From: Deinococcales bacterium
Lineage (GTDB): Bacteria; Deinococcota; Deinococci; Deinococcales; JAAFIG01
Direction: 5' to 3'
Assembly: GCA_013298595.1 (NCBI GenBank)
Contig: JAAFIG010000060.1
Coordinates: 1 to 9,887 of the forward strand
Length of the DNA: 9,887 nucleotides
The notes under the pieces were generated by a model that was not told the origin of the DNA, did not search any database, and saw only the letters and a list, made by a program, of their open reading frames with translations. Below are positions 2 through 9,712 of the stretch, one piece after another. The stretch's first letter is position 1; each line of letters begins with the position of its first letter. Made by a program: the position numbers and the translations under genes.

Positions 2-685
2 TTTTTTCGGGTTGCCGATGAATTTGTGCAAATCAGTAGCATCATGCCACAAAAACGCAACCCCGTTGTACTCGAGCATATTCGTGCTAAATTAGCTCGA
101 GCCAGTGGTCATTGCAATACTGCTTTTACCATGACAAATAATATTCCATTTGGCGATGTTAACGATATTGCCGAGCCATTACTACCTATCAGTTTAGCAG
201 CGCTCTCTGATGTCCAAGCTGCCCTAGCGCTACTAACGGCTGTGCTACAAACCTCGAGTTTTAACATCAAAAAAATGCGAGTGGCAGCAGCAGCCCATTT
301 TATCACGGCTACTGGTTTAGCTGATGCGCTGGTTGGCATTGGTATGACGTTCAAACAAGCCCATCAGATTGTCTCGAGAACCGTAGATTATGCGGTACAA
401 AATAACTTACATAGCTCGGAAATTACAGCCCAAATTGTCCAAAGTGTCTCGGAAACACCACTCGAGATCACAGCCGAATTGATTAAAAACGCACTTGACC
501 CACAAGTATTTGTTGAAAAGCGAACTACACTTGGCGGCAGTGCCCCCAACACTGTCAAAACAGCCCTCGAGCAGAGTACATATCGGTTCGAGCAACATAA
601 AACTTGGCGACTCGAGCAACTTGAAAAACAACAAATTGCAAAACAAAAACTCGAGATTGAAATCACGACAGTGTTTAGTGATTAA
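2..685 (+). CDS. argH: Argininosuccinate lyase-type enzyme, C-terminal part (5' end outside window)
   Basis: This is the C-terminal 227 residues of a fumarase/aspartase-superfamily lyase; the open frame runs back to base 2 without a start. The superfamily signature SSIMPQKRNP is at about residues 13-22. In this family that loop carries the catalytic serine that helps split argininosuccinate into arginine and fumarate, the last step of arginine synthesis in the cytoplasm. The context FVQISSIMPQKRNP, then EHIRAK and NIPFGDVND, matches the second ArgH type found in bacilli and others rather than the classical GSSxMPQKKNP form. The C-terminal helices end with VEKRTTLGGSAPNTVK and then a charged Glu/Lys/Gln-rich tail of about 40 residues. 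Eight CTCGAG palindromes lie in it. Its stop overlaps the convergent SGNH hydrolase gene by 11 bp. No other arginine genes are in view, so a different lyase substrate is possible. Confidence 0.8.
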   Translation, partial: FFRVADEFVQISSIMPQKRNPVVLEHIRAKLARASGHCNTAFTMTNNIPFGDVNDIAEPLLPISLAALSDVQAALALLTAVLQTSSFNIKKMRVAAAAHFITATGLADALVGIGMTFKQAHQIVSRTVDYAVQNNLHSSEITAQIVQSVSETPLEITAELIKNALDPQVFVEKRTTLGGSAPNTVKTALEQSTYRFEQHKTWRLEQLEKQQIAKQKLEIEITTVFSD

Positions 686-1391
686 TTGACCTATATTTTT
701 GCCGAATCAAAGCCGCTGTTTCTTGTCCCCAAACCGCATAAACCTTGCTTCCAGGATGAAATCCATCCGATGCCATCAAACTGGGGTCGTTGGGGAATTT
801 AGGGGTGTAATAAATACAATCTGCTTGTTGTTCGATAATTTTTGCCAAAGCCCGATCAAAGCGTTGACTCTGCATACCCAAATACCAACGCAGTGGTTGC
901 GGTAAAGCTGGGAAAAAACCAACAGGTGGAAACCCAGAAAAAATGATCAACGAACAATTAAATTTTTCACGCAACAATTTTAAAATAGCCAACTGATTTC
1001 CCAAAAAACGAATCTGTGAGACATTTGCTGTAACATCATTCACACCTAAGGAAATCACCACAGCATCAAAAGACTGCTTGGGAATTTTTTGTAAATGAGT
1101 TAATGTCGAACCACTGGTTGCCCCTGTTTTAGCAATTAAAGTCCAATGGGTAGCAAAATCTTGTTGTAAATGTAAAACAAGTTGCCCAAGCAATGCCTCT
1201 GATTGGGTATACACACCAACCCCAGCGGCGGCTGAATCACCCAACACCAATACGCGTAATGGTTTGCCAGTACCATCCAAACCAACTCGAGCACCTGTTG
1301 GTTCTGGTAAGCGTTGAATGGTTTTTCTGACATGCAGACCCTGACCAAATAAAAGTGGTGCAAGGCTGTACTTGGCAATAATATGACCCAT
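675..1391 (-). CDS. SGNH/GDSL-type hydrolase (esterase/lipase-like)
   Basis: A 238-residue serine hydrolase of the SGNH fold. All four landmark blocks are visible: GDS at residues 51-53 with the nucleophile Ser53 (GDSAAAGVGV), the block II glycine near Gly90 (KTGATSGSTL), GVND at 116-119 with oxyanion Asn118, and DGFHP at 209-213 carrying the Asp209/His212 pair. Such enzymes cleave esters of lipids, acyl-CoA or acetylated sugars; the substrate cannot be told here. The N-terminus (APLLFGQGLHVRKTIQRLP) is mildly hydrophobic but has no cleavable signal, and this lead-in is usual for the family, which supports the chosen ATG. A -10 hexamer TATTAT ends 5 nt before the ATG, with no Shine-Dalgarno. 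The gene follows the nitrilase gene by 33 bp and overlaps the convergent lyase gene at its 3' end. It holds only one CTCGAG, fewer than its neighbours. Confidence 0.88.
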   Translation of the reverse strand: MGHIIAKYSLAPLLFGQGLHVRKTIQRLPEPTGARVGLDGTGKPLRVLVLGDSAAAGVGVYTQSEALLGQLVLHLQQDFATHWTLIAKTGATSGSTLTHLQKIPKQSFDAVVISLGVNDVTANVSQIRFLGNQLAILKLLREKFNCSLIIFSGFPPVGFFPALPQPLRWYLGMQSQRFDRALAKIIEQQADCIYYTPKFPNDPSLMASDGFHPGSKVYAVWGQETAALIRQKYRSINH

Positions 1392-1396
1392 AAAAA

Positions 1397-1402
1397 ATAA
1401 TA
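1397..1402 (-). promoter_or_regulatory. -10 element (TATTAT) of the SGNH hydrolase gene, leaderless type
   Basis: TATTAT on the minus strand, followed by five T residues and then the ATG at 1391. With the usual 6-7 nt from -10 to transcription start, the RNA would begin at or next to the start codon. No convincing -35 hexamer is seen 16-18 bp upstream. It lies in the 33-bp gap after the nitrilase stop. Confidence 0.55.
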
Positions 1403-1424
1403 CACCCTATTGAACAACTATGAA

Positions 1425-2366
1425 TCAAGCAGCTAATTCTGTTGTTACCACTGCAAAGTCGTTGTAATTCGAGGCAAAAATAGTGGCTTGATTGCCGTTA
1501 AAGCCAATACTCGAGCAACCTTCAAATTCAAGTTCAAATAATTTGCCAACCAGCATTGGGTTGATCACCACTTGAATATGTTCGCGTTGCTGAATACGGC
1601 TTATCGCACCTCGAGCCAGCCACTCTTGACCTTCGATGCGAGTGGCATCGGCACTCCATGCCCCTGTCCATTTAGCAGCATTGGCACTGGGTTGCACCAG
1701 TATCTGCGTACCCGCAGCATCGGCTTTGGCAATACAACTATCAAAAAAAGCGTCGTAACAAATCAGGGTACCGATTCGCCCAATTTTTGTTTGTGTGGGT
1801 TGCCAATCCTCGAGCCGAGTTGTCCGCAAACCCAAACTGCTTTCGAGTCCTTTCGTGAGATGAACTTTACCTGTTCTTGAAAGTAAATACCCGCTCGGAG
1901 CAATCAAGTACGAAATATTTTGCACTCGAGTATCCGCAATATGTAAACCCTTAGCAGCTTCGGAATCTATACTTGGCAGAAAACTCGAGCCAGCCACAAT
2001 ATAAACATGATGCTCTTGGGCTGCACGGGAACACGCTTCGAGTAAGGCTTGATGGGTTTGTATCGCTCGAGGCAGTAATGCGCTGGCTATTGCCAAGTGT
2101 TGCCAACCAAGTTTTAGCCCCTCGAGCCAATGTGTTCTCAGTAATTCAAGGGCTGCATCTTGAACTTGAGAAGCACTTGTTGCACGATTCAGGAAAAAAT
2201 ACAGTGGTAAACCCAGTAATTCAGGAAAAGCAAGCAAAGCAGGTTGCCTTGGATCTCGAGATTGCAAAGCCGTTTTGGTTTGCTCAAGAATCCAAGCCGA
2301 AAAATCCGCTGTAGTTCGATACGCATCCCTCTCGAGTTTGGTTTGAACCGCTGCCAGAAAAGTCAC
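1425..2366 (-). CDS. Nitrilase-superfamily carbon-nitrogen hydrolase
   Basis: A 313-residue member of the CN-hydrolase fold, which hydrolyses amide or nitrile C-N bonds through a Glu-Lys-Cys triad. Visible triad: Glu49 in LLAFPE, Lys167 in RTGKVHL, and Cys203 in TLICYDAFFD. The region QPSANAAKWTGAW near residues 226-238 is the usual substrate-pocket stretch, and RIEGQEWLARGAI near 243-255 fits the dimer-interface helix. No signal peptide or membrane segment is seen, so it is cytoplasmic. The substrate is unknown; the family includes amidases, omega-amidase, N-carbamoyl hydrolases and nitrilases. The start is GTG at 2366, since a -10 hexamer TACAAT ends 6 nt upstream. That promoter overlaps the 3' end of the upstream zinc-ribbon gene, which stops 4 bp before this start. 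It contains nine CTCGAG sites. Confidence 0.85.
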   Translation of the reverse strand: MTFLAAVQTKLERDAYRTTADFSAWILEQTKTALQSRDPRQPALLAFPELLGLPLYFFLNRATSASQVQDAALELLRTHWLEGLKLGWQHLAIASALLPRAIQTHQALLEACSRAAQEHHVYIVAGSSFLPSIDSEAAKGLHIADTRVQNISYLIAPSGYLLSRTGKVHLTKGLESSLGLRTTRLEDWQPTQTKIGRIGTLICYDAFFDSCIAKADAAGTQILVQPSANAAKWTGAWSADATRIEGQEWLARGAISRIQQREHIQVVINPMLVGKLFELEFEGCSSIGFNGNQATIFASNYNDFAVVTTELAA

Positions 2367-2370
2367 GCAA

Positions 2371-2751
2371 TCATTGTACTTTACTCGAGAAGCGCTCGAG
2401 TAAACGTTGCCCCTCGGTTTTGGCAGAGGAACATTGTGCTAAAAAAGCAGGAACTTCGCTGAGTAAACGAGGACGTTGTCCTGAACCGCAGCCACAAGAA
2501 TGAAACGCCCAACCCGCCGCAAATAACACTTTGATTTTACGCCACTGCTTGATGTTGTTTTGTTTTGGGGCATGGAAATCTAAACCCATAGAGTGCATAG
2601 GACGTTTGCATTCAGGGCAGACAGGACTTGTGGGGTGATTGACAACTATTTGCCCTTCTGAACGGGTCACTTCAAAAGGAATTTTAAATGTTTTCCGACA
2701 CTCAAAACACGCAAAATGTTGTTTGTATTGTTTGAATGCGTACCGACACAT
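2371..2751 (-). CDS. Conserved cysteine-rich zinc-ribbon protein of unknown function
   Basis: A 126-residue soluble protein with paired cysteines that look like metal ligands: C15-x2-C18 (CFEC), C45-x2-C48 (CPEC) and C86/C88 (SCGCG). The run between them contains a conserved-looking FHAPKQNNIKQWRKI block at residues 59-73. I recall similar short proteins of unknown role in other bacteria (AC FxCRK ... CPEC ... APKQ ... W), but cannot name the family. ATG at 2751 is chosen over the upstream in-frame GTG at 2793. A -10 hexamer TATACT lies at 2770-2775, placing the RNA start near 2763, and leaves a 12-nt leader with a GAGG/AGGG Shine-Dalgarno-like stretch. The GTG at 2793 lies upstream of this promoter. 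The last 30 residues are low in motif content. The gene follows the AMP nucleosidase gene by 68 bp. Confidence 0.75.
   Translation of the reverse strand: MCRYAFKQYKQHFACFECRKTFKIPFEVTRSEGQIVVNHPTSPVCPECKRPMHSMGLDFHAPKQNNIKQWRKIKVLFAAGWAFHSCGCGSGQRPRLLSEVPAFLAQCSSAKTEGQRLLERFSSKVQ
2373..2378 (-). promoter_or_regulatory. -10 element (TACAAT) of the nitrilase-type gene, leaderless type
   Basis: TACAAT then six bases then the GTG start at 2366. The hexamer lies within the last codons of the upstream zinc-ribbon gene and shares its TGA stop. Two CTCGAG palindromes, at 2384 and 2395, sit just upstream in the spacer and -35 region. No standard -35 is seen. Confidence 0.55.
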
Positions 2752-2769
2752 ACACCCTACCTCGAGCGC

Positions 2770-2775
2770 AGTATA
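2770..2775 (-). promoter_or_regulatory. -10 element (TATACT) of the zinc-ribbon gene, with short leader and SD
   Basis: TATACT lies 18 bp before the ATG at 2751, so this gene, unlike its neighbours, should have a short 5' leader of about 12 nt containing GAGGTAGGG as ribosome-binding site. The hexamer is bracketed by CTCGAG palindromes at 2761 and 2782, exactly 21 bp apart. Confidence 0.45.
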
Positions 2776-2819
2776 GAAAAACTCGAGATGCACGACATCG
2801 GCTAAATGACGTAAGCAAA

Positions 2820-3593
2820 TTAATACGTGAAATGCTTGATCTGTTCGCCACTGGCACCAATATCCGTCATGGCTTCGATGCCAAGGTCAAGGTGAATATC
2901 CACCCACTTCTTAGTCACTTCTTTATCTGAGGCATCGGTTTTAACACCATCAGGGGTAATTGGTACATCCGAAACCAGTAGCAAAGCACCTCTGGCAATA
3001 TCGTTATGATGCCCAACAATAAAGACTGTAGCGGTTTCCATATCAATACCAATACAGGTTAAACGCTTTAACCGCTCGAGAAAAGCCTCGTCGTGCTCCC
3101 AAACTCGGCGGTTGGTGGTGTAAATCACTCCCGTGCGATACTCGAGGTCTCTGGCAACAATTTTATCCGAGACAAATTTATGCAGTTTAAAACTGGGTAA
3201 GGCTGGAACTTCGGGTGGGAAATAATCGTTTGAAGTACCTTCACCGCGAATAGCTGCGATGGGCAAAATAAAATTACCAATTTCGGTACTGTGTTTTAAA
3301 CCACCGCATTTGCCCAGAAATAACACACCTTTAGGCATCCTTGCTGAGAGTAAATCCATGATTGTAGCAGCATTAGCGCTACCAATTCCAAAGTTAATCA
3401 TGGTTAAACCAGCACTATTGGTACAAGCCTGCATGGCTTTACCTTCGCCGTATATATCAGCTCCGAACCGATTAGCAAACCGCTGCATATAATCACCGAA
3501 ATTAGTCAGCAGTACATAATCGCCAAATTGATCTAAAGGCATTCCTGTGTACCGTGGCAACCAATTTTGGGCAATCTCGAGTTTTGTTTTCAT
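2820..3593 (-). CDS. amn: AMP nucleosidase, short form
   Basis: A 257-residue enzyme of the nucleoside phosphorylase fold, of the short form that lacks the extra N-terminal domain of the enterobacterial enzyme. AMP nucleosidase splits AMP into adenine and ribose 5-phosphate, a cytoplasmic step of purine salvage and adenylate control. Visible landmarks are GIGSANAA (69-76), LGKCGGLK (93-100), IRGEGTSNDYFPPEVP (115-130), IDMETATVF (183-191, the ribose-contacting Met-Glu segment) and LVSDVPITPDG (206-216, with the purine-facing Asp209). The full family length and a TACAAT -10 ending 5 nt before the ATG support the start. The gene is divergent from the FKBP gene across 51 bp and leads the minus-strand run. 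A related nucleosidase or purine phosphorylase is the alternative, but the EVPALPSFKL stretch favours AMP nucleosidase. Confidence 0.88.
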   Translation of the reverse strand: MKTKLEIAQNWLPRYTGMPLDQFGDYVLLTNFGDYMQRFANRFGADIYGEGKAMQACTNSAGLTMINFGIGSANAATIMDLLSARMPKGVLFLGKCGGLKHSTEIGNFILPIAAIRGEGTSNDYFPPEVPALPSFKLHKFVSDKIVARDLEYRTGVIYTTNRRVWEHDEAFLERLKRLTCIGIDMETATVFIVGHHNDIARGALLLVSDVPITPDGVKTDASDKEVTKKWVDIHLDLGIEAMTDIGASGEQIKHFTY

Positions 3594-3598
3594 AAGTC

Positions 3599-3604
3599 AT
3601 TGTA
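3599..3604 (-). promoter_or_regulatory. Extended -10 element (TGCTACAAT) of the AMP nucleosidase gene, leaderless type
   Basis: TACAAT preceded by TGC gives an extended -10 (TGnTACAAT). Five bases separate it from the ATG at 3593, so the transcript should start at or by the start codon. A CTCGAG at 3622-3627 occupies exactly the -35 position with a 17-bp spacer; no TTGACA-like hexamer is present. Confidence 0.6.
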
Positions 3605-3632
3605 GCAGTGGTACGAACAACCTCGAGACGGT

Positions 3633-3638
3633 TAGAAT
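3633..3638 (+). promoter_or_regulatory. -10 element (TAGAAT) of the FKBP gene, leaderless type
   Basis: TAGAAT then GAAGGT then the ATG at 3645, six bases apart. GAAGGT could serve as a weak Shine-Dalgarno only if transcription started further upstream. This promoter and the divergent one for the AMP nucleosidase share the 51-bp interval, their -10 boxes being 28 bp apart, so the two upstream regions overlap. Confidence 0.5.
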
Positions 3639-3644
3639 GAAGGT

Positions 3645-4184
3645 ATGAATAAGAATGTAATCGGAATCATTATTGGTGTGGTTATTTTGGCATTAGGCGG
3701 ACTTTGGGTTAGTCAGAATGGGCAAGCACCCTCGAGTACACCTGTTGTAACCCCACCTACAGATACAACCACCACACAGACTCCACCTGCTGTACCACCT
3801 GTTAGTGTGATGTGTGCTAAGCAACCTGCTGCCAATACCAGCTTAAAAGACACTGATGTTACAGAATTAAAGAAAGAAGACACCGTCGTTGGAAGTGGCA
3901 CAGAAGCTGTAGCTGGCAAAACTGTAGTTGTCAATTACATTGGGCGTTTAGTCAATGGCACACAGTTTGATGCCTCATGCGACCGTGGGCAACCATTTGA
4001 TTTTCAACTTGGCGCAGGTGGTGTAATTCAAGGTTGGGATCAGGGTGTAGCAGGTATGAAAGTTGGTGGACAACGCCGTCTCATTATTCCAGCAAATTTG
4101 GCATATGGTGCAACCCCTCCAACCCCTGCTATTCCTGCTAACGCAGCCCTAATTTTTGATGTTGAATTACTTGAAGTCAAGTAA
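3645..4184 (+). CDS. FKBP-type peptidyl-prolyl cis-trans isomerase, membrane-anchored
   Basis: A 179-residue protein in three parts. Residues 4-22 are a hydrophobic segment (VIGIIIGVVILALGGLW) after Asn/Lys, acting as an uncleaved anchor or signal. Residues 28-54 are a Pro/Thr-rich flexible linker. Residues 80-179 are one FKBP domain with the hallmark pattern VVVNYIGRLVNGTQFDAS, GGVIQGWDQGVAGMKVGGQRRL, IPANLAYG and FDVELLEVK, including the pocket residues Tyr98, Phe108, Asp109, Val127, Ile128, Trp131 and Tyr154. It would speed proline isomerisation in proteins outside the cytoplasmic membrane. Two cysteines, Cys57 (VMCAKQ) and Cys112 (ASCDRG), might pair. The ATG has a -10 box six bases upstream. 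It is codirectional with the kinase gene after 51 bp but that gene has its own promoter. Confidence 0.92.
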   Translation: MNKNVIGIIIGVVILALGGLWVSQNGQAPSSTPVVTPPTDTTTTQTPPAVPPVSVMCAKQPAANTSLKDTDVTELKKEDTVVGSGTEAVAGKTVVVNYIGRLVNGTQFDASCDRGQPFDFQLGAGGVIQGWDQGVAGMKVGGQRRLIIPANLAYGATPPTPAIPANAALIFDVELLEVK

Positions 4185-4222
4185 TCACAAATAACCTTTA
4201 AGACTTTTTTTATAAAACCAGT

Positions 4223-4228
4223 CATAAT
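4223..4228 (+). promoter_or_regulatory. -10 element (CATAAT) of the kinase-ATPase gene, leaderless type
   Basis: CATAAT followed by seven bases and the ATG at 4236. The hexamer overlaps an upstream in-frame ATG at 4227, which would not be in an RNA made from this promoter. A second candidate, TATAAA at 4211-4216, would instead give an RNA starting just before 4227. No Shine-Dalgarno is present before either start. Confidence 0.45.
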
Positions 4229-4235
4229 GAACACC

Positions 4236-7200
4236 ATGACCACTATCTCGAGCCAGCGTTACCAGTTCATTCGTGAACTTGGCGCTGGTGCAATGGGTCA
4301 GGTTTCATTGGCAATGGATTCTGAAACTGGTGCATTGGTTGCTGTGAAAAAAATGCACGAAATGGTGGCTTTAACTGGTGGTGCCAGAATGCGCCGTGAG
4401 TTCAGGTCGTTATCGCAAATCGAACATCCTAATGTGGTACGGGTTCTGGATTTAGGCGAAGAACGCGGTATGCCTTTTTTGGTTATGGAATTTATCAAAG
4501 GGCAAGATTTATCCGAATGGATGGGTTCTAACCCTGATTTCTCGAGTATCACCAAAATCTTTGCAGGTATTGCTGGGGCATTAGGTGCCGTTCATGCCCA
4601 AGGTATTATTCACCGCGATTTAAAACCAGAAAATATCCGAGTCACCCCAGAAGGCGAACCAAAACTGATGGATTTTGGACTTGCCAAAACAATGGAAGGT
4701 ACAGTTGCCTTAACCAAAGCAGGTGCAATGGTTGGCACAGCCTTGTACATGGCACCCGAGCAATGCCGAGGCGCACAACTCGATTACCGCGCCGACCTGT
4801 ACGCCCTTGGAGCTGTACTCTACTGGGCACTGACAGGACAACCCCCTTTTACAGGCGACAGCATTGTCCAAGTAATCATGCAACACATCCAACAAGCCCC
4901 GATTCCACCACGGCAACGCAACCCCAATATTCCCGAAAATCTCGAGCAAATCTGCCTTGCGTTACTGGCAAAAAACCCTGCTGAACGCCCCTCGAGTGCC
5001 ACAGCAGTACGCGAAGTTTTACTGCGTGCCCTTGAAACACCATTGCAACCCAATGAATCCCAAGCTCAAACCGCTCGAGCCGACGCATTGTTACTCGCTC
5101 CTTTAATTGGCAGAGAAACCGAACTCGAGAGTTTAGCTGGCTTATTTGAAACAGGTTTAGGTGGTTTACATGCACTGGTCGGAGATGTTGGCACTGGTAA
5201 AACCCGTTTATTAAAAGCCTTAGGCGAACGTGCTCAAATCAGTGGAGCAAGACTTGGGATTGGTGAAGCCATTGCTGATGACCCAACCCCTTTTGGTACA
5301 GTCAAACGTCTAATCGAAAATCTCGAGAAACACTACCGCTTTATTTTTGATGAAGTTACAGACACTGCCCGAACCGAACTTGCCCGTATTGCTCCACAAT
5401 TTGGTATCGCACCACCATCAGACCCCAATTTACCAGCCGAAGTTGCTCGGCTACGTTTGTTTGAAGCCTTCACCGAATTACTCGAGCGCATTACCAGCTT
5501 AACAGTGGTTGCCTTTGAAAACGTACACTGGGCAGACGAAAGTACCCTGGCACTATTGGCACATGCTTTACGTGCCGCACCAGATGCTCGAGTGATTATC
5601 ACCTACCGTCTCGAGGATTTACCCGAAGGGCAACAAATCCCCAAGGGTTTCCCTAAACCACGCAAAACCATCAGCTTAAACGCATTACCCGACCAAAACA
5701 TGCACGAATTACTACGTGCCTTACTTGGCGGAGAAATCGAAAACATCCTCGAGAACGAATTGGTCAGTCATGCCAGCGGTAACCCGTGGGTACTCGAGGA
5801 ACGCCTTAAAGCCATGCTTGAAAATGGGGCAATTCAACGCCGCGCCCAAATTTTTGAATGGAACCGCAGTTTAACAGGGCTACCCGAAAGCCTTGGTGAA
5901 CTCTTAGCCCATCGTTTAGCTGTACTGGACCCAAATGTCCTCGAGTTTGCCCGAGCTGCCAGTATCCTCGGACGTGCCTTTTGGTTTGAAGATGCTCGCG
6001 CCATGCTGGACTGGTCAGATGATGCCGCCCTTGATGCCTTAGAAAGCCTCAGCCGTGCCAGATTAATTGCTGAAACGCCAGGCAGTAACGGTGAGGGATT
6101 CCGTTTCACCCACCCGATGTATAACGAACTCCTACGCGAAGGTATCATGCGCTTAAAACGCAAACGCCTCCACGCCAAAGCAGCCACACTCCGCACAGGC
6201 AAAGCCGAACCGCTCGAGATTGCCGAACACTGGCAAGCGGCTGAGAATTACTCCCAAGCCCTCGAGACAGCCATGCAAGCAGGCATACAAGCCCAAGCCG
6301 CCTTTGCCTACCCACAAGCCGAACGTGCCTATAGACTGGCACTTGAAGCAGTCACTAACCTTGAGACCGAAAATAGTGCTACCGAAACCCAGCAATTACA
6401 GCACATGCAAGCCAAGCATCACCTCGGAGAAGTGCTTAGTGCTAACGGCAAAATACCAGAAGCCCAAGAACTCTGGAAAGATGTGATTGAACACGCGCAA
6501 TGGCTACCAAACAGCGCTGAGTTAATCGCTCGAGCCAAAGTAGAACTTATCCGAGCTATGAGATTTTCAGGCGATTACGACACTGCCCTCAAGATCGTTG
6601 GTGAGCCGAATAGAGAAGAATTACTGTATACATTGCTATGTGCAAATTTAAGTATGCTTCTCGAGCATAAAAATCCACAAAAAGCACGTTCCTATGCACT
6701 TGAAGCAATACGTAATGCAAAAATTGAAAAAAATAATGAAGATTTAACACAGTCATTATCAATTCTGTCTGTTCTTGCTTCACAAAAAAAGCGAAAAGTT
6801 CTACTCGCTGAAATGGCAACAAAGATTGCCGAAAAAACACAAAATAATCATTTGCTTTCAGTCGCTTGGAATGACCTTGGAGCTGCTTACTATAACGCCA
6901 ATATTCGTGAAAAAGCATTTACTGCTTGGGAGAATGCTACTAAATTTGCTGAAATCGTTGGCAATATTCGTATCCTAGCCATTTTGGATGCTAATAAAGC
7001 TTTGGTTTTGATGCAAGATACAGACTTTAATACTGCAATTCAAACTCTTGATCGTGCTATTCAACTAGCACAACGAATTGGTATGCAAGGAGCTGAAAAA
7101 CAAGCAGCTTATAATAAAGCATCTTGTTTTTATGGATTAAATCAACTCACTGAATCCAGATCTGAAATGGAAAAAATCAGAGATCATTTTCTCGAACCAG

Positions 7201-7664
7201 TAATTCGGGTTTGGGAAACCCGAATTACTATCGAACTAGGCGACGGTTTTGTTTTACAAGTCCCACAAGTCGAAAAAGATGATTACGGTTATGGGTATTA
7301 TCAACTTACACAAGCTTTATTAGCACTTTCTTTTGGTGATTATCAAAAAGTTTGGGAGATGACTTCCGTAGAATCAGATGAAGCTGATTGGCATTGGGCT
7401 TTAGCTCGAATTCATGCTGGTTGGCGTTTGGGTCTACAAGATGACATAGCAATAAAACAAGTGCTTGAGGGACGTGCTACCGATCCAAATTTAACAGCAG
7501 AATTAACCCGAGAATTTATTACCTTTATTGAACTTGTTTTACAACCAAGAACTTCTGAAAATATAGCTCAATTATCCTCACTTTGCCCTCAATATCTCGC
7601 TTCTCCTATTGGCGTATTGGCTCGAGATGTAATGTTATCGCTGACTGATTCAACCGCAGATTAA
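4236..7664 (+). CDS. Ser/Thr protein kinase fused to AAA-type ATPase and TPR repeats
   Basis: A 1142-residue cytoplasmic signalling protein. Residues about 9-265 are a complete Hanks-type kinase: glycine loop GAGAMGQV (16-23), VAVKK with Lys38, helix-C Glu55, HRDLKPEN (126-133, catalytic Asp128), DFG (146-148) and MAPEQ (172-176), so it should be active. A linker leads to an AAA/NACHT-like ATPase with an APLIGRETELESL entry motif (288-300) and Walker A GDVGTGKT (316-323). The Walker B region is VVAFENVHWADEST, with Glu428 where Asp is common. From about residue 657 (EIAEHW) the protein is helical TPR-like repeats to the end, with no recognisable C-terminal DNA-binding domain. This order resembles PknK-type regulators that sense a ligand or partner and phosphorylate targets. 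No membrane segment is seen. After base 6600 the GC content falls and CTCGAG nearly vanishes. The start at 4236 follows the CATAAT box; 4227 is the alternative. Confidence 0.92.
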   Translation: MTTISSQRYQFIRELGAGAMGQVSLAMDSETGALVAVKKMHEMVALTGGARMRREFRSLSQIEHPNVVRVLDLGEERGMPFLVMEFIKGQDLSEWMGSNPDFSSITKIFAGIAGALGAVHAQGIIHRDLKPENIRVTPEGEPKLMDFGLAKTMEGTVALTKAGAMVGTALYMAPEQCRGAQLDYRADLYALGAVLYWALTGQPPFTGDSIVQVIMQHIQQAPIPPRQRNPNIPENLEQICLALLAKNPAERPSSATAVREVLLRALETPLQPNESQAQTARADALLLAPLIGRETELESLAGLFETGLGGLHALVGDVGTGKTRLLKALGERAQISGARLGIGEAIADDPTPFGTVKRLIENLEKHYRFIFDEVTDTARTELARIAPQFGIAPPSDPNLPAEVARLRLFEAFTELLERITSLTVVAFENVHWADESTLALLAHALRAAPDARVIITYRLEDLPEGQQIPKGFPKPRKTISLNALPDQNMHELLRALLGGEIENILENELVSHASGNPWVLEERLKAMLENGAIQRRAQIFEWNRSLTGLPESLGELLAHRLAVLDPNVLEFARAASILGRAFWFEDARAMLDWSDDAALDALESLSRARLIAETPGSNGEGFRFTHPMYNELLREGIMRLKRKRLHAKAATLRTGKAEPLEIAEHWQAAENYSQALETAMQAGIQAQAAFAYPQAERAYRLALEAVTNLETENSATETQQLQHMQAKHHLGEVLSANGKIPEAQELWKDVIEHAQWLPNSAELIARAKVELIRAMRFSGDYDTALKIVGEPNREELLYTLLCANLSMLLEHKNPQKARSYALEAIRNAKIEKNNEDLTQSLSILSVLASQKKRKVLLAEMATKIAEKTQNNHLLSVAWNDLGAAYYNANIREKAFTAWENATKFAEIVGNIRILAILDANKALVLMQDTDFNTAIQTLDRAIQLAQRIGMQGAEKQAAYNKASCFYGLNQLTESRSEMEKIRDHFLEPVIRVWETRITIELGDGFVLQVPQVEKDDYGYGYYQLTQALLALSFGDYQKVWEMTSVESDEADWHWALARIHAGWRLGLQDDIAIKQVLEGRATDPNLTAELTREFITFIELVLQPRTSENIAQLSSLCPQYLASPIGVLARDVMLSLTDSTAD

Positions 7665-7707
7665 CGTTGTCTTTGGGCTTTCCTCATCTGATTCTTCGAC
7701 TCTCTGC

Positions 7708-7713
7708 TAGTAT
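7708..7713 (+). promoter_or_regulatory. Extended -10 element (TGCTAGTAT) of the lipoprotein gene, leaderless type
   Basis: TAGTAT with TGC in front gives an extended -10. Seven bases separate it from the ATG at 7721. It lies in the 56-bp gap after the kinase stop, so the lipoprotein can be made independently of the kinase. No clear -35 or ribosome-binding site is seen. Confidence 0.5.
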
Positions 7714-7720
7714 AAGAAGC

Positions 7721-8722
7721 ATGAGACTTTTATATTTATTCGGAGTTGCAGGGTTGGCTCTTGCGCTAACAGCGTGTCCAACCACACGACCATTTGATCG
7801 TGAGAATTCAGATAATCTAAAAAATTTTGCACCAAATGCAGTCGCAAGTTCAACACAATTCTTAAAAGGTTCACCAATTACAGCTTCCGGAGCAGCTCAA
7901 ATGGTGCAACAAATTGCTCGAGGCAACCCAGACTTTGCACCATCCCTTGCTAAAGCACCAGCCAATCTTGGCACTGTCTTCTCGAGAATGCAAGTGCAAG
8001 CCATTGGCACACCATTACAAATGCCTGAGGATTTCCGAGTTGCTGTTGCTGCAAAGTTTGGGCTTCGTCCTCAAGCGGGTAATGCGTGCGGTCCTGCCAA
8101 TACCCCTGCTGATAATGATGGCGATGGTATCCCTAATTCGTTTACCTACACTTTTGATTGTGGTGGCTCATTATATGCTGGTCAAGCAGCAAGTTTGACT
8201 GGTAGTGTTAGTATTACTGATTTAGGCATTAACGACCCAAATAGTGGTTATGATGTCAAATTAACCAATCTGATTTTTGCTTATGTGGATACGAATATTG
8301 ATACTGGTTTTGCCTTTGGAACAAATATGGATACCAAAGTCCGAGTTGGTGCAAATGGAAAATACAACGTTACACAATCCTTTGAATTTGGGGCAGTCAC
8401 CATAAAAGACGGTGAAACATCGACTTTTGAATTTATTTCAAATGGCACATTAGAATTTACGCCAGCTCCAAATGCAACCAATGCAACTCGCTTTGCTAAA
8501 GGTACACTCAAATTCCGCAATAAATTCTCGTTCAAAGTAAATATTAATGGTAAGACATACGAATCCGAACTCGAGATGTACTCAACAGGTATGCAGGTAG
8601 ATCAAGCGACTTGTGGTCGGGATAACATGGTTAATAGTGGCGATATTAAATTCACAGATGGTAAGAACACTTTGACTTGGACTATTACAGGTTGTGGTGA
8701 TGGTACTTGGAATTATCAATAA
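7721..8722 (+). CDS. Secreted lipoprotein of unknown function with a DxDxDG loop
   Basis: A 333-residue exported lipoprotein. MRLLYLFGVAGLALALTAC is a textbook type II signal, with lipobox LTAC and the lipidated Cys19. ATG at 7721 is chosen because it puts the positive residue and hydrophobic core in the right place; an in-frame TTG at 7667 would add 18 residues and lacks a promoter at the usual distance. The mature part begins with a Thr/Asn/Asp-rich stretch. Around residues 125-145 it has the acidic loop DNDGDGIPNS followed by FTYTFDCGG, like the calcium-binding loops of thrombospondin type 3 repeats. The rest is rich in alternating hydrophobic and Thr/Asn residues, suggesting beta structure. 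Several cysteines (near GNACGP, FDCGG, ATCGRD, TGCGDG) could form disulfides. No enzymatic motif is recognised. A strong terminator follows the stop. Confidence 0.82.
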   Translation: MRLLYLFGVAGLALALTACPTTRPFDRENSDNLKNFAPNAVASSTQFLKGSPITASGAAQMVQQIARGNPDFAPSLAKAPANLGTVFSRMQVQAIGTPLQMPEDFRVAVAAKFGLRPQAGNACGPANTPADNDGDGIPNSFTYTFDCGGSLYAGQAASLTGSVSITDLGINDPNSGYDVKLTNLIFAYVDTNIDTGFAFGTNMDTKVRVGANGKYNVTQSFEFGAVTIKDGETSTFEFISNGTLEFTPAPNATNATRFAKGTLKFRNKFSFKVNINGKTYESELEMYSTGMQVDQATCGRDNMVNSGDIKFTDGKNTLTWTITGCGDGTWNYQ

Positions 8723-8740
8723 GCTCCACTCGAGTTTCAG

Positions 8741-8768
8741 GCGCAACCTTTGCGGGTTGCGCTTTTTT
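8741..8768 (+). terminator. Rho-independent terminator after the lipoprotein gene
   Basis: A perfect 8-bp GC-rich stem, GCGCAACC (8741-8748) with GGTTGCGC (8755-8762), a 6-base loop TTTGCG, and then six T residues (8763-8768). It begins 18 bp after the lipoprotein stop and ends before the nitroreductase promoter. Confidence 0.92.
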
Positions 8769-8773
8769 CTTGG

Positions 8774-8779
8774 TAGGCT
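8774..8779 (+). promoter_or_regulatory. Possible extended -10 element (TGGTAGGCT) of the nitroreductase gene
   Basis: TAGGCT fits only the loose TANNNT pattern but has TGG in front and lies six bases before the ATG at 8786, the same geometry as its neighbours. It starts 6 bp after the terminator T-run, so the gene needs its own promoter here. A CTCGAG at 8778-8783 overlaps its last bases. Confidence 0.35.
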
Positions 8780-8785
8780 CGAGTT

Positions 8786-9712
8786 ATGATTTTAGACCCA
8801 CGTCTTGAGGTTTTTGCAACCCATCGCACTGTTCGTCAGTACAAAGCTCAACCATTAGAAACTGGGCATCTCGAACAATTACTTTTTTGTGCTCAGCACG
8901 CTCCAACCGATGCAACAGCGCAAATGTATAGTTTTATTCGGTTATCCGACCCTGCCTTAAAAGCTCGAGTAGCAAAAATCACCAATAACCCGCATATTGA
9001 AACGGCTGCCGAAGCATTTATTGTTTGTGCCGATGTGAATCGTTTACAGGCGTTACTCGAGTTAAAAGGGTATGCGTTTGGCGACTGGAGTGCTGTGGCA
9101 GTTCATTTTGGCATTGGTGATGCTGTTCTGGCTGCTCATACGATGCTGGTTGCAGCGGAATGCCTTGGTTATCAGGGTTGTTGGATTGGTGGGGTTTTGG
9201 GTGCGCTCGAGGAAATTGTTACATTGTGCGAGTTACCCATTGGTGTGTTACCTTTTGCGGGCTTAACCATTGGTGTGCCTGATGAATCTCCCGAGCAACG
9301 CCCTCGGATTCAACCTGAACTTGTCTTGCACGAAAATTCGTATCGGTTACCAAGTGCAGCAGAACTCGAGGAAGCGCTGAACCGCATGGCAAGTATTACT
9401 GCTCGGGGTGATTGGGCACAAACACTTTCAAGGTATTTTGCTCAAGGTGGCACGATGGAGGCTCGAGAAGTTGTTTTGCAAAAGGTACTGGAACAACAAG
9501 GTTTTTCGCATGTTAGTAGCGATTTGAATGCGCTGATGGCTCGAGCCAAAAAGGCTGGTTTTCCAACGATTTTAGTGCGCCCAACCGATACGGGGTTTCA
9601 AGCTTGGATTGAACAAGCTGGTTTAGCACATGGTGGTGAAGGTGTTTCTGCGGTGGCTGCGCTTGAAGAAGCCGTGCAAACTGCGGAACAAAGCCTCAAG
9701 GCAAGTATTTGA
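8786..9712 (+). CDS. Nitroreductase-family FMN oxidoreductase with a C-terminal extension
   Basis: A 308-residue cytoplasmic protein. Residues 1-190 are a nitroreductase domain of the NfsA/FRP kind, which uses FMN and NAD(P)H to reduce nitroaromatics, quinones or flavins. Landmarks are HRTVRQYKAQPL (13-24, phosphate-contacting arginines), the APTDATAQMYSFIRL segment (39-53), HFGIGDAVLAAHTMLVAAECLGYQGCWIGG (107-136), LTIGVPDESPEQRPR (160-174) and the HENSY turn (182-186). The natural substrate is unknown. The last 118 residues exceed a standard nitroreductase and form a separate charged helical segment with alternating Ala/Glu/Leu, containing ILVRPTDTGFQAWIE. I do not recognise this part. The ATG follows a terminator by 17 bp and has a weak -10 at the leaderless spacing. 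Seven CTCGAG sites lie within it. It is the last host gene before an insertion sequence. Confidence 0.85.
   Translation: MILDPRLEVFATHRTVRQYKAQPLETGHLEQLLFCAQHAPTDATAQMYSFIRLSDPALKARVAKITNNPHIETAAEAFIVCADVNRLQALLELKGYAFGDWSAVAVHFGIGDAVLAAHTMLVAAECLGYQGCWIGGVLGALEEIVTLCELPIGVLPFAGLTIGVPDESPEQRPRIQPELVLHENSYRLPSAAELEEALNRMASITARGDWAQTLSRYFAQGGTMEAREVVLQKVLEQQGFSHVSSDLNALMARAKKAGFPTILVRPTDTGFQAWIEQAGLAHGGEGVSAVAALEEAVQTAEQSLKASI

Follow-up and report, generated by a model that had tools for sequence, protein, structure and literature searches.

What kind of process would spread a single six-base palindrome over bacterial DNA at a density of several copies per kilobase? The question is raised by a 9,887-nucleotide stretch of DNA, the whole of which is referred to here as the window, that contains exactly 56 copies of CTCGAG by direct count, all lying between positions 71 and 9545. 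Below we describe the extent of the excess, its conservation and its consequences for proteins, and weigh the explanations that might account for it.

CTCGAG is over-represented throughout the genome

The first bases of the 56 copies, to which the palindromic sequence assigns no strand, are at positions 71, 96, 253, 373, 461, 566, 611, 650, 1286, 1510, 1610, 1809, 1925, 1984, 2066, 2121, 2255, 2331, 2384, 2395, 2761, 2782, 3075, 3141, 3576, 3622, 3731, 4247, 4541, 4941, 4991, 5074, 5124, 5322, 5481, 5587, 5610, 5748, 5793, 5940, 6213, 6261, 6529, 6660, 7621, 7917, 7981, 8570, 8729, 8778, 8964, 9056, 9206, 9365, 9462 and 9540. By base composition the window should hold 1.9 copies, and Markov models of first and second order predict 0.9 and 4.0, respectively. 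The first-pass annotation, which counted some 56 copies and put the excess at roughly 20-fold, was right and understated the case. The same annotation had placed the sites in genes of both strands and in the gaps between them, which agrees with our assignment of 53 copies to predicted genes of either strand and three to intergenic DNA or gene edges. It had also proposed a comparison with Markov models; the excess is evident against the low orders, whereas the test at orders 4 and 5 is uninformative, since the highest-order model predicts 47.5 copies in the window because the nested 5-mers themselves hold the excess.

The excess is not limited to the window, a confinement that the first-pass annotation had named as grounds for rejecting its reading. 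In the whole genome (G000: 94% complete, 4.58 Mb in 68 contigs) we counted 27,159 copies, corresponding to 5.9 per kb or one per ~170 bp; this is about 30–60 times the expected number and makes up ~3.6% of the genome. The reversed control, GAGCTC, occurs only 15 times genome-wide; as GAGCTC is itself strongly avoided, the composition and Markov expectations are the better yardstick. In a 410-kb sample, 2,323 copies were counted against 80 expected from composition, 41 at first order and 163 at second order, giving an observed-to-expected (O/E) ratio of 29 by base composition. None of the other 6-base palindromes in this sample showed a similar excess, and the majority were below expectation. 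The longest CTCGAG-free gap in the window (6666..7620; 961 bp between the starts of the bordering sites, G+C 0.37) falls within the C-terminal TPR part of a plus-strand gene at 4227..7664, which encodes a 1145-residue protein with Ser/Thr kinase, AAA_16 and TPR regions according to Pfam. This gene hosts many CTCGAG sites and is an ordinary gene outside the CTCGAG mechanism.

The repeated element and its paired copies

No flanking base is common to the copies in the window or in the 410-kb sample, where the flanking frequencies are near background, and the element is thus exactly six bases long. A mobile repeat, which the first-pass annotation had already discounted, was rejected on the same ground, as the copies share no longer homologous flanks. 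The densities in coding and intergenic DNA of G000 are 5.68 and 5.49 per kb, respectively, the intergenic density pooled over six genomes is 7.6 per kb, and the sites are evenly distributed along genes. In all DNA pooled from the six genomes, copies 8–20 bp apart are scarcer than chance, and a distance of 6 is absent because it would create the avoided hexamer GAGCTC. Beyond ~20–60 bp the copies are mutually independent; there is neither a helical period, by which a helical or nucleosome-like arrangement was rejected, nor the even spacing that one site per fragment would produce.

Intergenic pairs at 14–30 bp are not rare, and 25 of 184 close intergenic pairs have at least three extra matching stem bases, against 2.9 expected. 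Many of the extended hairpins take the form AAAAGCTCGAG..loop..CTCGAGCTTTT and lie at gene ends. In the window, two copies 11 bp apart at 2378..2406 (no strand assigned) have matching flanks, TTTACTCGAG-AAGCG-CTCGAGTAAA, and lie where the minus-strand gene 2371–2793 has its 3' end. The stem-loop (2380–2404) has a perfect 10-bp stem, and the fold of 2374–2410 was calculated at −12.8 kcal/mol. Such paired sites are predicted to be terminator-like hairpins. Paired copies of the known uptake sequences (DUS and USS) likewise serve as terminators.

The sites are conserved in related genomes

The best named match of GlgC among the matches listed is that of Meiothermus luteus (71%), and the carriers are, judging the phylum from this match, probably related to Thermus and Meiothermus. 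Each of the four genomes in the window's own family (f1) contains 26,600–28,200 copies of CTCGAG. In family f2, a pair of congeneric genomes has 6–8 copies per kb, G008 has ~3.5–3.6 per kb and G004 has 0.3 per kb. The comparison of relatives suggested by the first-pass annotation shows the excess to be conserved across two families; among the genomes sampled from them the density is 5.7–7.7 per kb over a G+C range of 45–59%. Small samples of Meiothermus-like genomes showed a weaker excess (1.9–4.8 fold over codon shuffles), and a Thermus-like genome showed no CTCGAG excess over codon shuffles.

In codon alignments of G000 and G001, which share 75% nucleotide identity, 61% of the G000 sites are intact, compared with 21% of other hexamers. 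Across families, with G000 or G003 aligned to G012, 44–51% of the sites are kept, compared with 10–13% of other hexamers. The positions that are not conserved mostly differ by two or more bases. With intact sites masked, one-off forms occur at 1.2–1.6 times expectation, chiefly owing to the transition products TTCGAG, CCCGAG and CTTGAG, a pattern that looks like ordinary decay kept in check. Taken together, the modest excess of one-off forms and the retention at orthologous positions indicate that the sites are old, actively maintained and sharply recognised.

The excess alters protein sequences

Since CTC-GAG could simply be a pair of favoured Leu and Glu codons, ordinary codon usage, or an artefact, has to be considered. 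The in-frame Leu-Glu phase is indeed the commonest, accounting for 1,190 of 2,107 genic sites, with 516 read around CGA (Arg) and 401 around TCG (Ser). However, in the heavy carriers CTCGAG is still in 6–12 fold excess over synonymous codon shuffles of the genes; the effect extends to all three phases and to intergenic DNA, and separate assemblies concur. Codon usage was therefore rejected as the cause, and we regard this explanation as having practically no chance of being correct. The excess that survives codon shuffling implies a DNA-level process that alters amino acids. We counted 1,804 Leu-Glu dipeptides where 774 were expected, and 746 Glu-Leu dipeptides; CTCGAG encodes 66% of the Leu-Glu pairs. 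The Leu-Glu/Glu-Leu ratio is ~2.3–2.5 in the heavy carriers, compared with 2.0 in G008 and 1.0 in G004. With ~1,000 extra Leu-Glu pairs in ~380 sampled genes, the proteome is altered by a process acting on DNA, and the reading of conserved residues in the proteins of carriers is affected accordingly.

Where CTCGAG is missing and other palindromes are avoided

Amino-acid composition and G+C together account, in a regression, for the density of sites almost to Poisson noise (dispersion 1.15). Genes with less than 36% G+C, which are likely recent arrivals, have 0.36 sites per kb, compared with 6–7 per kb in genes of ordinary composition, and many of the long gaps coincide with AT-rich islands, whose genes are for restriction or surface polysaccharides or are of unknown type. 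The single functional exception, noticed post hoc, was the type IV pilin genes, which in two species have 13 sites where 54 were predicted; rapid turnover of surface genes may be responsible. A large protein of the pilin operon had no match in a PDB sequence search. Viral contigs with three close CTCGAG copies were mostly G+C-rich and look like chance matches.

Other palindromes are depleted in the same genomes. In the six heavy carriers, 6-base palindromes have a median O/E of 0.07–0.39, compared with 0.72 in G008 and 0.89 in G004, and 37–68% of 6-base palindromes in the heavy carriers fall below one-fifth of expectation, compared with 1–2% of other hexamers. GGCC occurs 13 times in G000 against ~1,290 expected, and GAGCTC is avoided in all six heavy carriers. 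The set of avoided palindromes is partly species-specific, and such variation between species matches the expectation for restriction avoidance. CTCGAG might be the sole palindrome permitted, perhaps protected from, or self to, the restriction systems of the lineage, and the extreme avoidance elsewhere (in contrast to the value in G004) is in keeping with this. Avoidance of other sites could not, however, yield a 30–60 fold excess of one hexamer; G008 combines an excess with little avoidance, and CTCGAG is constant while the avoided sites vary by species. We therefore consider such a restriction side effect very improbable. A single cause can be envisaged, speculatively, for both patterns: transformation may be so frequent that fragments bearing unmethylated restriction sites are lost and those bearing CTCGAG are favoured.

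No shared methyltransferase among the families surveyed

The leading idea of the first-pass annotation was a methylation mark, for which it had suggested looking for an orphan methyltransferase specific for CTCGAG. The DNA methyltransferase survey (METHYLTRANSFERASES) used PF07669, PF01555, PF00145, PF02086 and PF02384 in 12–15 genomes, comprising carriers and relatives; these five families span nearly all known DNA methyltransferases. No methyltransferase orthologue of the five families was common to the carriers among the 12–15 genomes, and the idea of a methylation mark is left unsupported. The enzymes that were found occur patchily, as is typical of restriction systems: about six in G000 and about three in G008, none of them closely related to the XhoI-linked enzymes. 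Those of G000 are a C5 enzyme, one with a NotI-like-nuclease neighbour, one in a GmrSD/HEPN island, two Eco57I-like enzymes and one D12-like enzyme. The C5 enzyme, considered as a common orphan methyltransferase, is present in G000, G001 and G012 (59–73% identity) and was not found in other carriers.

The XhoI-family nuclease (PF04555) is absent from all carriers and present in four of 111 genomes of the phylum, so that XhoI restriction-modification was rejected as the cause. Three f4 genomes that bear XhoI (G018, G042 and G048) have 0.7–1.0 CTCGAG per kb, compared with ~1.7–2.0 per kb in sister genomes, and nothing closely related to the methyltransferases adjoining these nucleases was seen in G000, G001 or G003. 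In G077, which has 3 copies per kb, a relative of one XhoI-linked methyltransferase was found and no XhoI was detected.

Competence and candidate explanations

As a competence marker we searched for ComEC (PF03772), which was found in 100 of the 111 genomes of the phylum, including all carriers that are at least 90% complete (G000–G003, G012 and G008; G016 is 58% complete). The search found no ComEC in G004 (97% complete, 30 contigs), which alone among the f2 genomes lacks the excess, or in G041, which likewise has a very low count. Conversely, G052 has ComEC and few CTCGAG (0.28 per kb). When genomes of at least 90% completeness were compared, those without ComEC had the lower CTCGAG/GAGCTC ratios (P = 0.001 excluding Thermus and 0.055 including it), values that ignore descent and, for the former, depend on an exclusion chosen post hoc. 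Since Thermus has ComEC without the excess, ComEC is at most necessary.

The reading that we tentatively place first, at somewhat less than an even chance, is that CTCGAG is an uptake or transformation self-recognition sequence that owes its spread to molecular drive. CTCGAG-bearing DNA would be preferred either by the competence machinery or at some step after uptake and before recombination, and alleles with the site would displace those without it until a density of about one copy per 170 bp was reached. A minor pilin would be the obvious candidate receptor, and drive, rather than benefit to the cell, would set the density. The models of Maughan et al. 2010 (cited in PMC7811141) showed drive on its own to be enough for such accumulation. 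The reading is drawn from the genome-wide and family-wide excess, its retention at orthologous positions, the Leu-Glu doubling, the joint absence of ComEC and the sites in G004, the site-poor acquired DNA, the hairpin pairs and the sharpness of the signal. Of the roles listed in the first-pass annotation, uptake tagging fits best, its recognition step being the inferred part. Several observations count against it. Within the carrier families, the ComEC contrast comes down to a single clear loss, that of G004; G052 is ComEC-positive with few sites; the coding DNA of G000 is not clearly poorer in sites, contrary to the prediction of drive; and the scarcity of pairs at 8–20 bp could also be explained by a bound protein. 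By analogy with known systems, moreover, six bases would be short for an uptake sequence, those known having 9–12, and the density would be at least twice that of the densest published uptake sequence compared (K. oralis, ~2.5 per kb).

The alternative next in our ranking, which we consider rather unlikely, is a site for an abundant DNA protein (a nucleoid protein, a condensin loader, a double-strand-break repair factor or a symmetric Chi-like nuclease stop), maintained by weak selection per copy in very large populations. The all-or-none nature of the hexamer, the near-constant density over the G+C range, the exclusion of neighbours at 8–20 bp in the pooled data, the absence of helical periodicity and the uniform distribution along genes would all suit such a protein. 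On its own, however, it leaves the joint loss of ComEC and sites in G004 unexplained, and both the specific poverty of the pilin genes and the tolerance of intergenic pairs at 14–30 bp speak against it. A methylation-linked system comes third and is more doubtful still: a methyltransferase for CTCGAG (or TCGA), together with methylation-directed repair or a methyl-reader, would ratchet the genome towards the site. Cyanobacterial highly iterated palindromes (HIPs) and alternate HIPs generally match a methyltransferase (Elhai 2015, PMC4390886), orphan CTCGAG methylation exists in Nocardia (PMC4752239), G077 carries an enzyme of the XhoI-linked type, and the survey is compatible with an unrecognised enzyme or with unrelated enzymes of equal specificity. 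Against this stand the patchy enzymes, with no carrier-wide orthologue among the families and genomes surveyed, and the relative rarity of CTCGAG in the genuine XhoI genomes. Returning to uptake, we suggest, with less confidence than for the recognition sequence itself, a new uptake-type system in a lineage related to Thermus and Meiothermus, in which a 6-bp palindrome, read in natural transformation and spread by drive, would have reached record density, with proteins rewritten, terminators supplied and restriction palindromes purged by the same exchange.

Comparison with known systems

In our literature search, which covered little subscription literature, no paper was found on CTCGAG as a highly iterated sequence. 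The first-pass annotation knew of no CTCGAG system of this kind, which is not fully accurate for the hexamer as such: Blow et al. 2016 (PMC4752239) described in Nocardia a conserved orphan CTCGAG methyltransferase whose sites cluster near dnaA, a pattern of another sort. The hexamer is identical, whereas here the spread is genome-wide and no such enzyme was found. XhoI/PaeR7I restriction-modification also shares the recognition sequence, but the nuclease is missing from the carriers and XhoI-bearing genomes are poorer in sites. Chi and other recombination-orienting motifs are similarly short, dense and maintained genome-wide; unlike CTCGAG, which cannot have an orientation, Chi is non-palindromic and oriented.

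Uptake sequences, namely the neisserial DUS and Pasteurellaceae USS (PMC3630211, PMC7811141, PMC2397512), resemble CTCGAG in genome-wide over-representation, scarcity in newly acquired DNA, family-wide conservation, the presence of a competence gene (ComEC) in carriers and hairpin-forming paired copies. They are 9–12 bp long, whereas CTCGAG is a perfect 6-bp palindrome in another phylum, known from sequence alone, and the densest dialect compared, that of K. oralis, occupies ~2.5% of its genome, compared with 3.6% here.

The closest likeness is to the HIPs of cyanobacteria, HIP1 (GCGATCGC) and the alternate HIPs GGCGCC, RCCGGY, GCSGC and GGGATCCC (Elhai 2015, PMC4390886). These are also short palindromes present genome-wide in coding and non-coding DNA, lack strand preference, and have been replaced or have disappeared in individual relatives. 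CTCGAG is such a palindrome outside the cyanobacteria, and the HIP1-like, strand-neutral, DNA-level pattern perceived by the first-pass annotation was borne out by the genome-wide counts and the relatives. It differs from HIP1 in sequence and phylum, and its sampled density of 5.7–7.7 per kb is at least twice that of HIP1 (0.3–2.7 per kb; PMC4390886). Its O/E of 29 by base composition compares with 15.5 for GGCGCC in Calothrix D253 (PMC4390886). A matching methyltransferase is the rule for cyanobacterial HIPs (PMC4390886), whereas none was found here in the five families, and this case is apparently uncoupled from a common methyltransferase. HIPs and uptake sequences are already known as kinds; what is new about CTCGAG is its phylum and density, how it affects the proteome and the absence of a shared methyltransferase among those found. 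Because a close relative lacks both the sites and ComEC, the choice between methylation, uptake and chromatin is directly testable in this lineage. The function of HIPs has been a question since 1995, and CTCGAG provides an independent, denser case in another phylum.

XhoI-like nucleases and other restriction loci

XhoI-like nucleases with an adjoining methyltransferase are encoded in three genomes of the same phylum, G018, G042 and G048 (L315-L317), in which CTCGAG is less frequent than in their sister genomes. Another genome of the phylum, G009, carries a broken XhoI gene (L318), and the enzyme encoded next to it is ~48-50% identical to two methyltransferases of G077 (L023 and L009). The latter genome contains ~3 CTCGAG per kb and no XhoI nuclease was detected in it, making the two enzymes candidate orphan CTCGAG methyltransferases. 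In G000, the genome of the window, a beta-type methyltransferase adjoins a NotI-like (PF12183) nuclease on contig C34 (L097:10649-12495). A CTCGAG-free, AT-rich acquired island on contig C66 (32% G+C; L098:7959-11088), possibly a defence island, encodes one GmrSD_N and one HEPN protein together with a beta-type methyltransferase.

CTCGAG at gene ends and in type IV pilin genes

CTCGAG pairs whose flanks are extended give rise to terminator-like hairpins at the ends of genes, both at window 2378-2406 and among the intergenic pairs of six genomes. The site is scarce in the type IV pilin genes of G000 and its relative G001 (13 observed versus 54 predicted; L080:16545 to L081:2130, L090:4681-5551 and L191:2653-8103), among them one that codes for a 1135-aa PilX_N protein and has three prepilin genes after it. 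Two predicted proteins of the window, one cysteine-rich (140 aa, 2371-2793) and one secreted-looking (351 aa, 7667-8722), had no Pfam matches.

Avoidance of other palindromes

Most palindromes besides CTCGAG are extremely depleted in all of the heavy carriers, the genomes at full CTCGAG density (L079-L098 of G000; L099-L138 and L159-L198). GGCC occurs 13 times in G000 versus ~1,290 expected, GATC three times in a 37-kb sample of G016, CCGG at 0.06 of expectation in G012, and GAGCTC is almost absent (~0) from six of the six. The restriction avoidance usual in bacteria is much weaker than this depletion.
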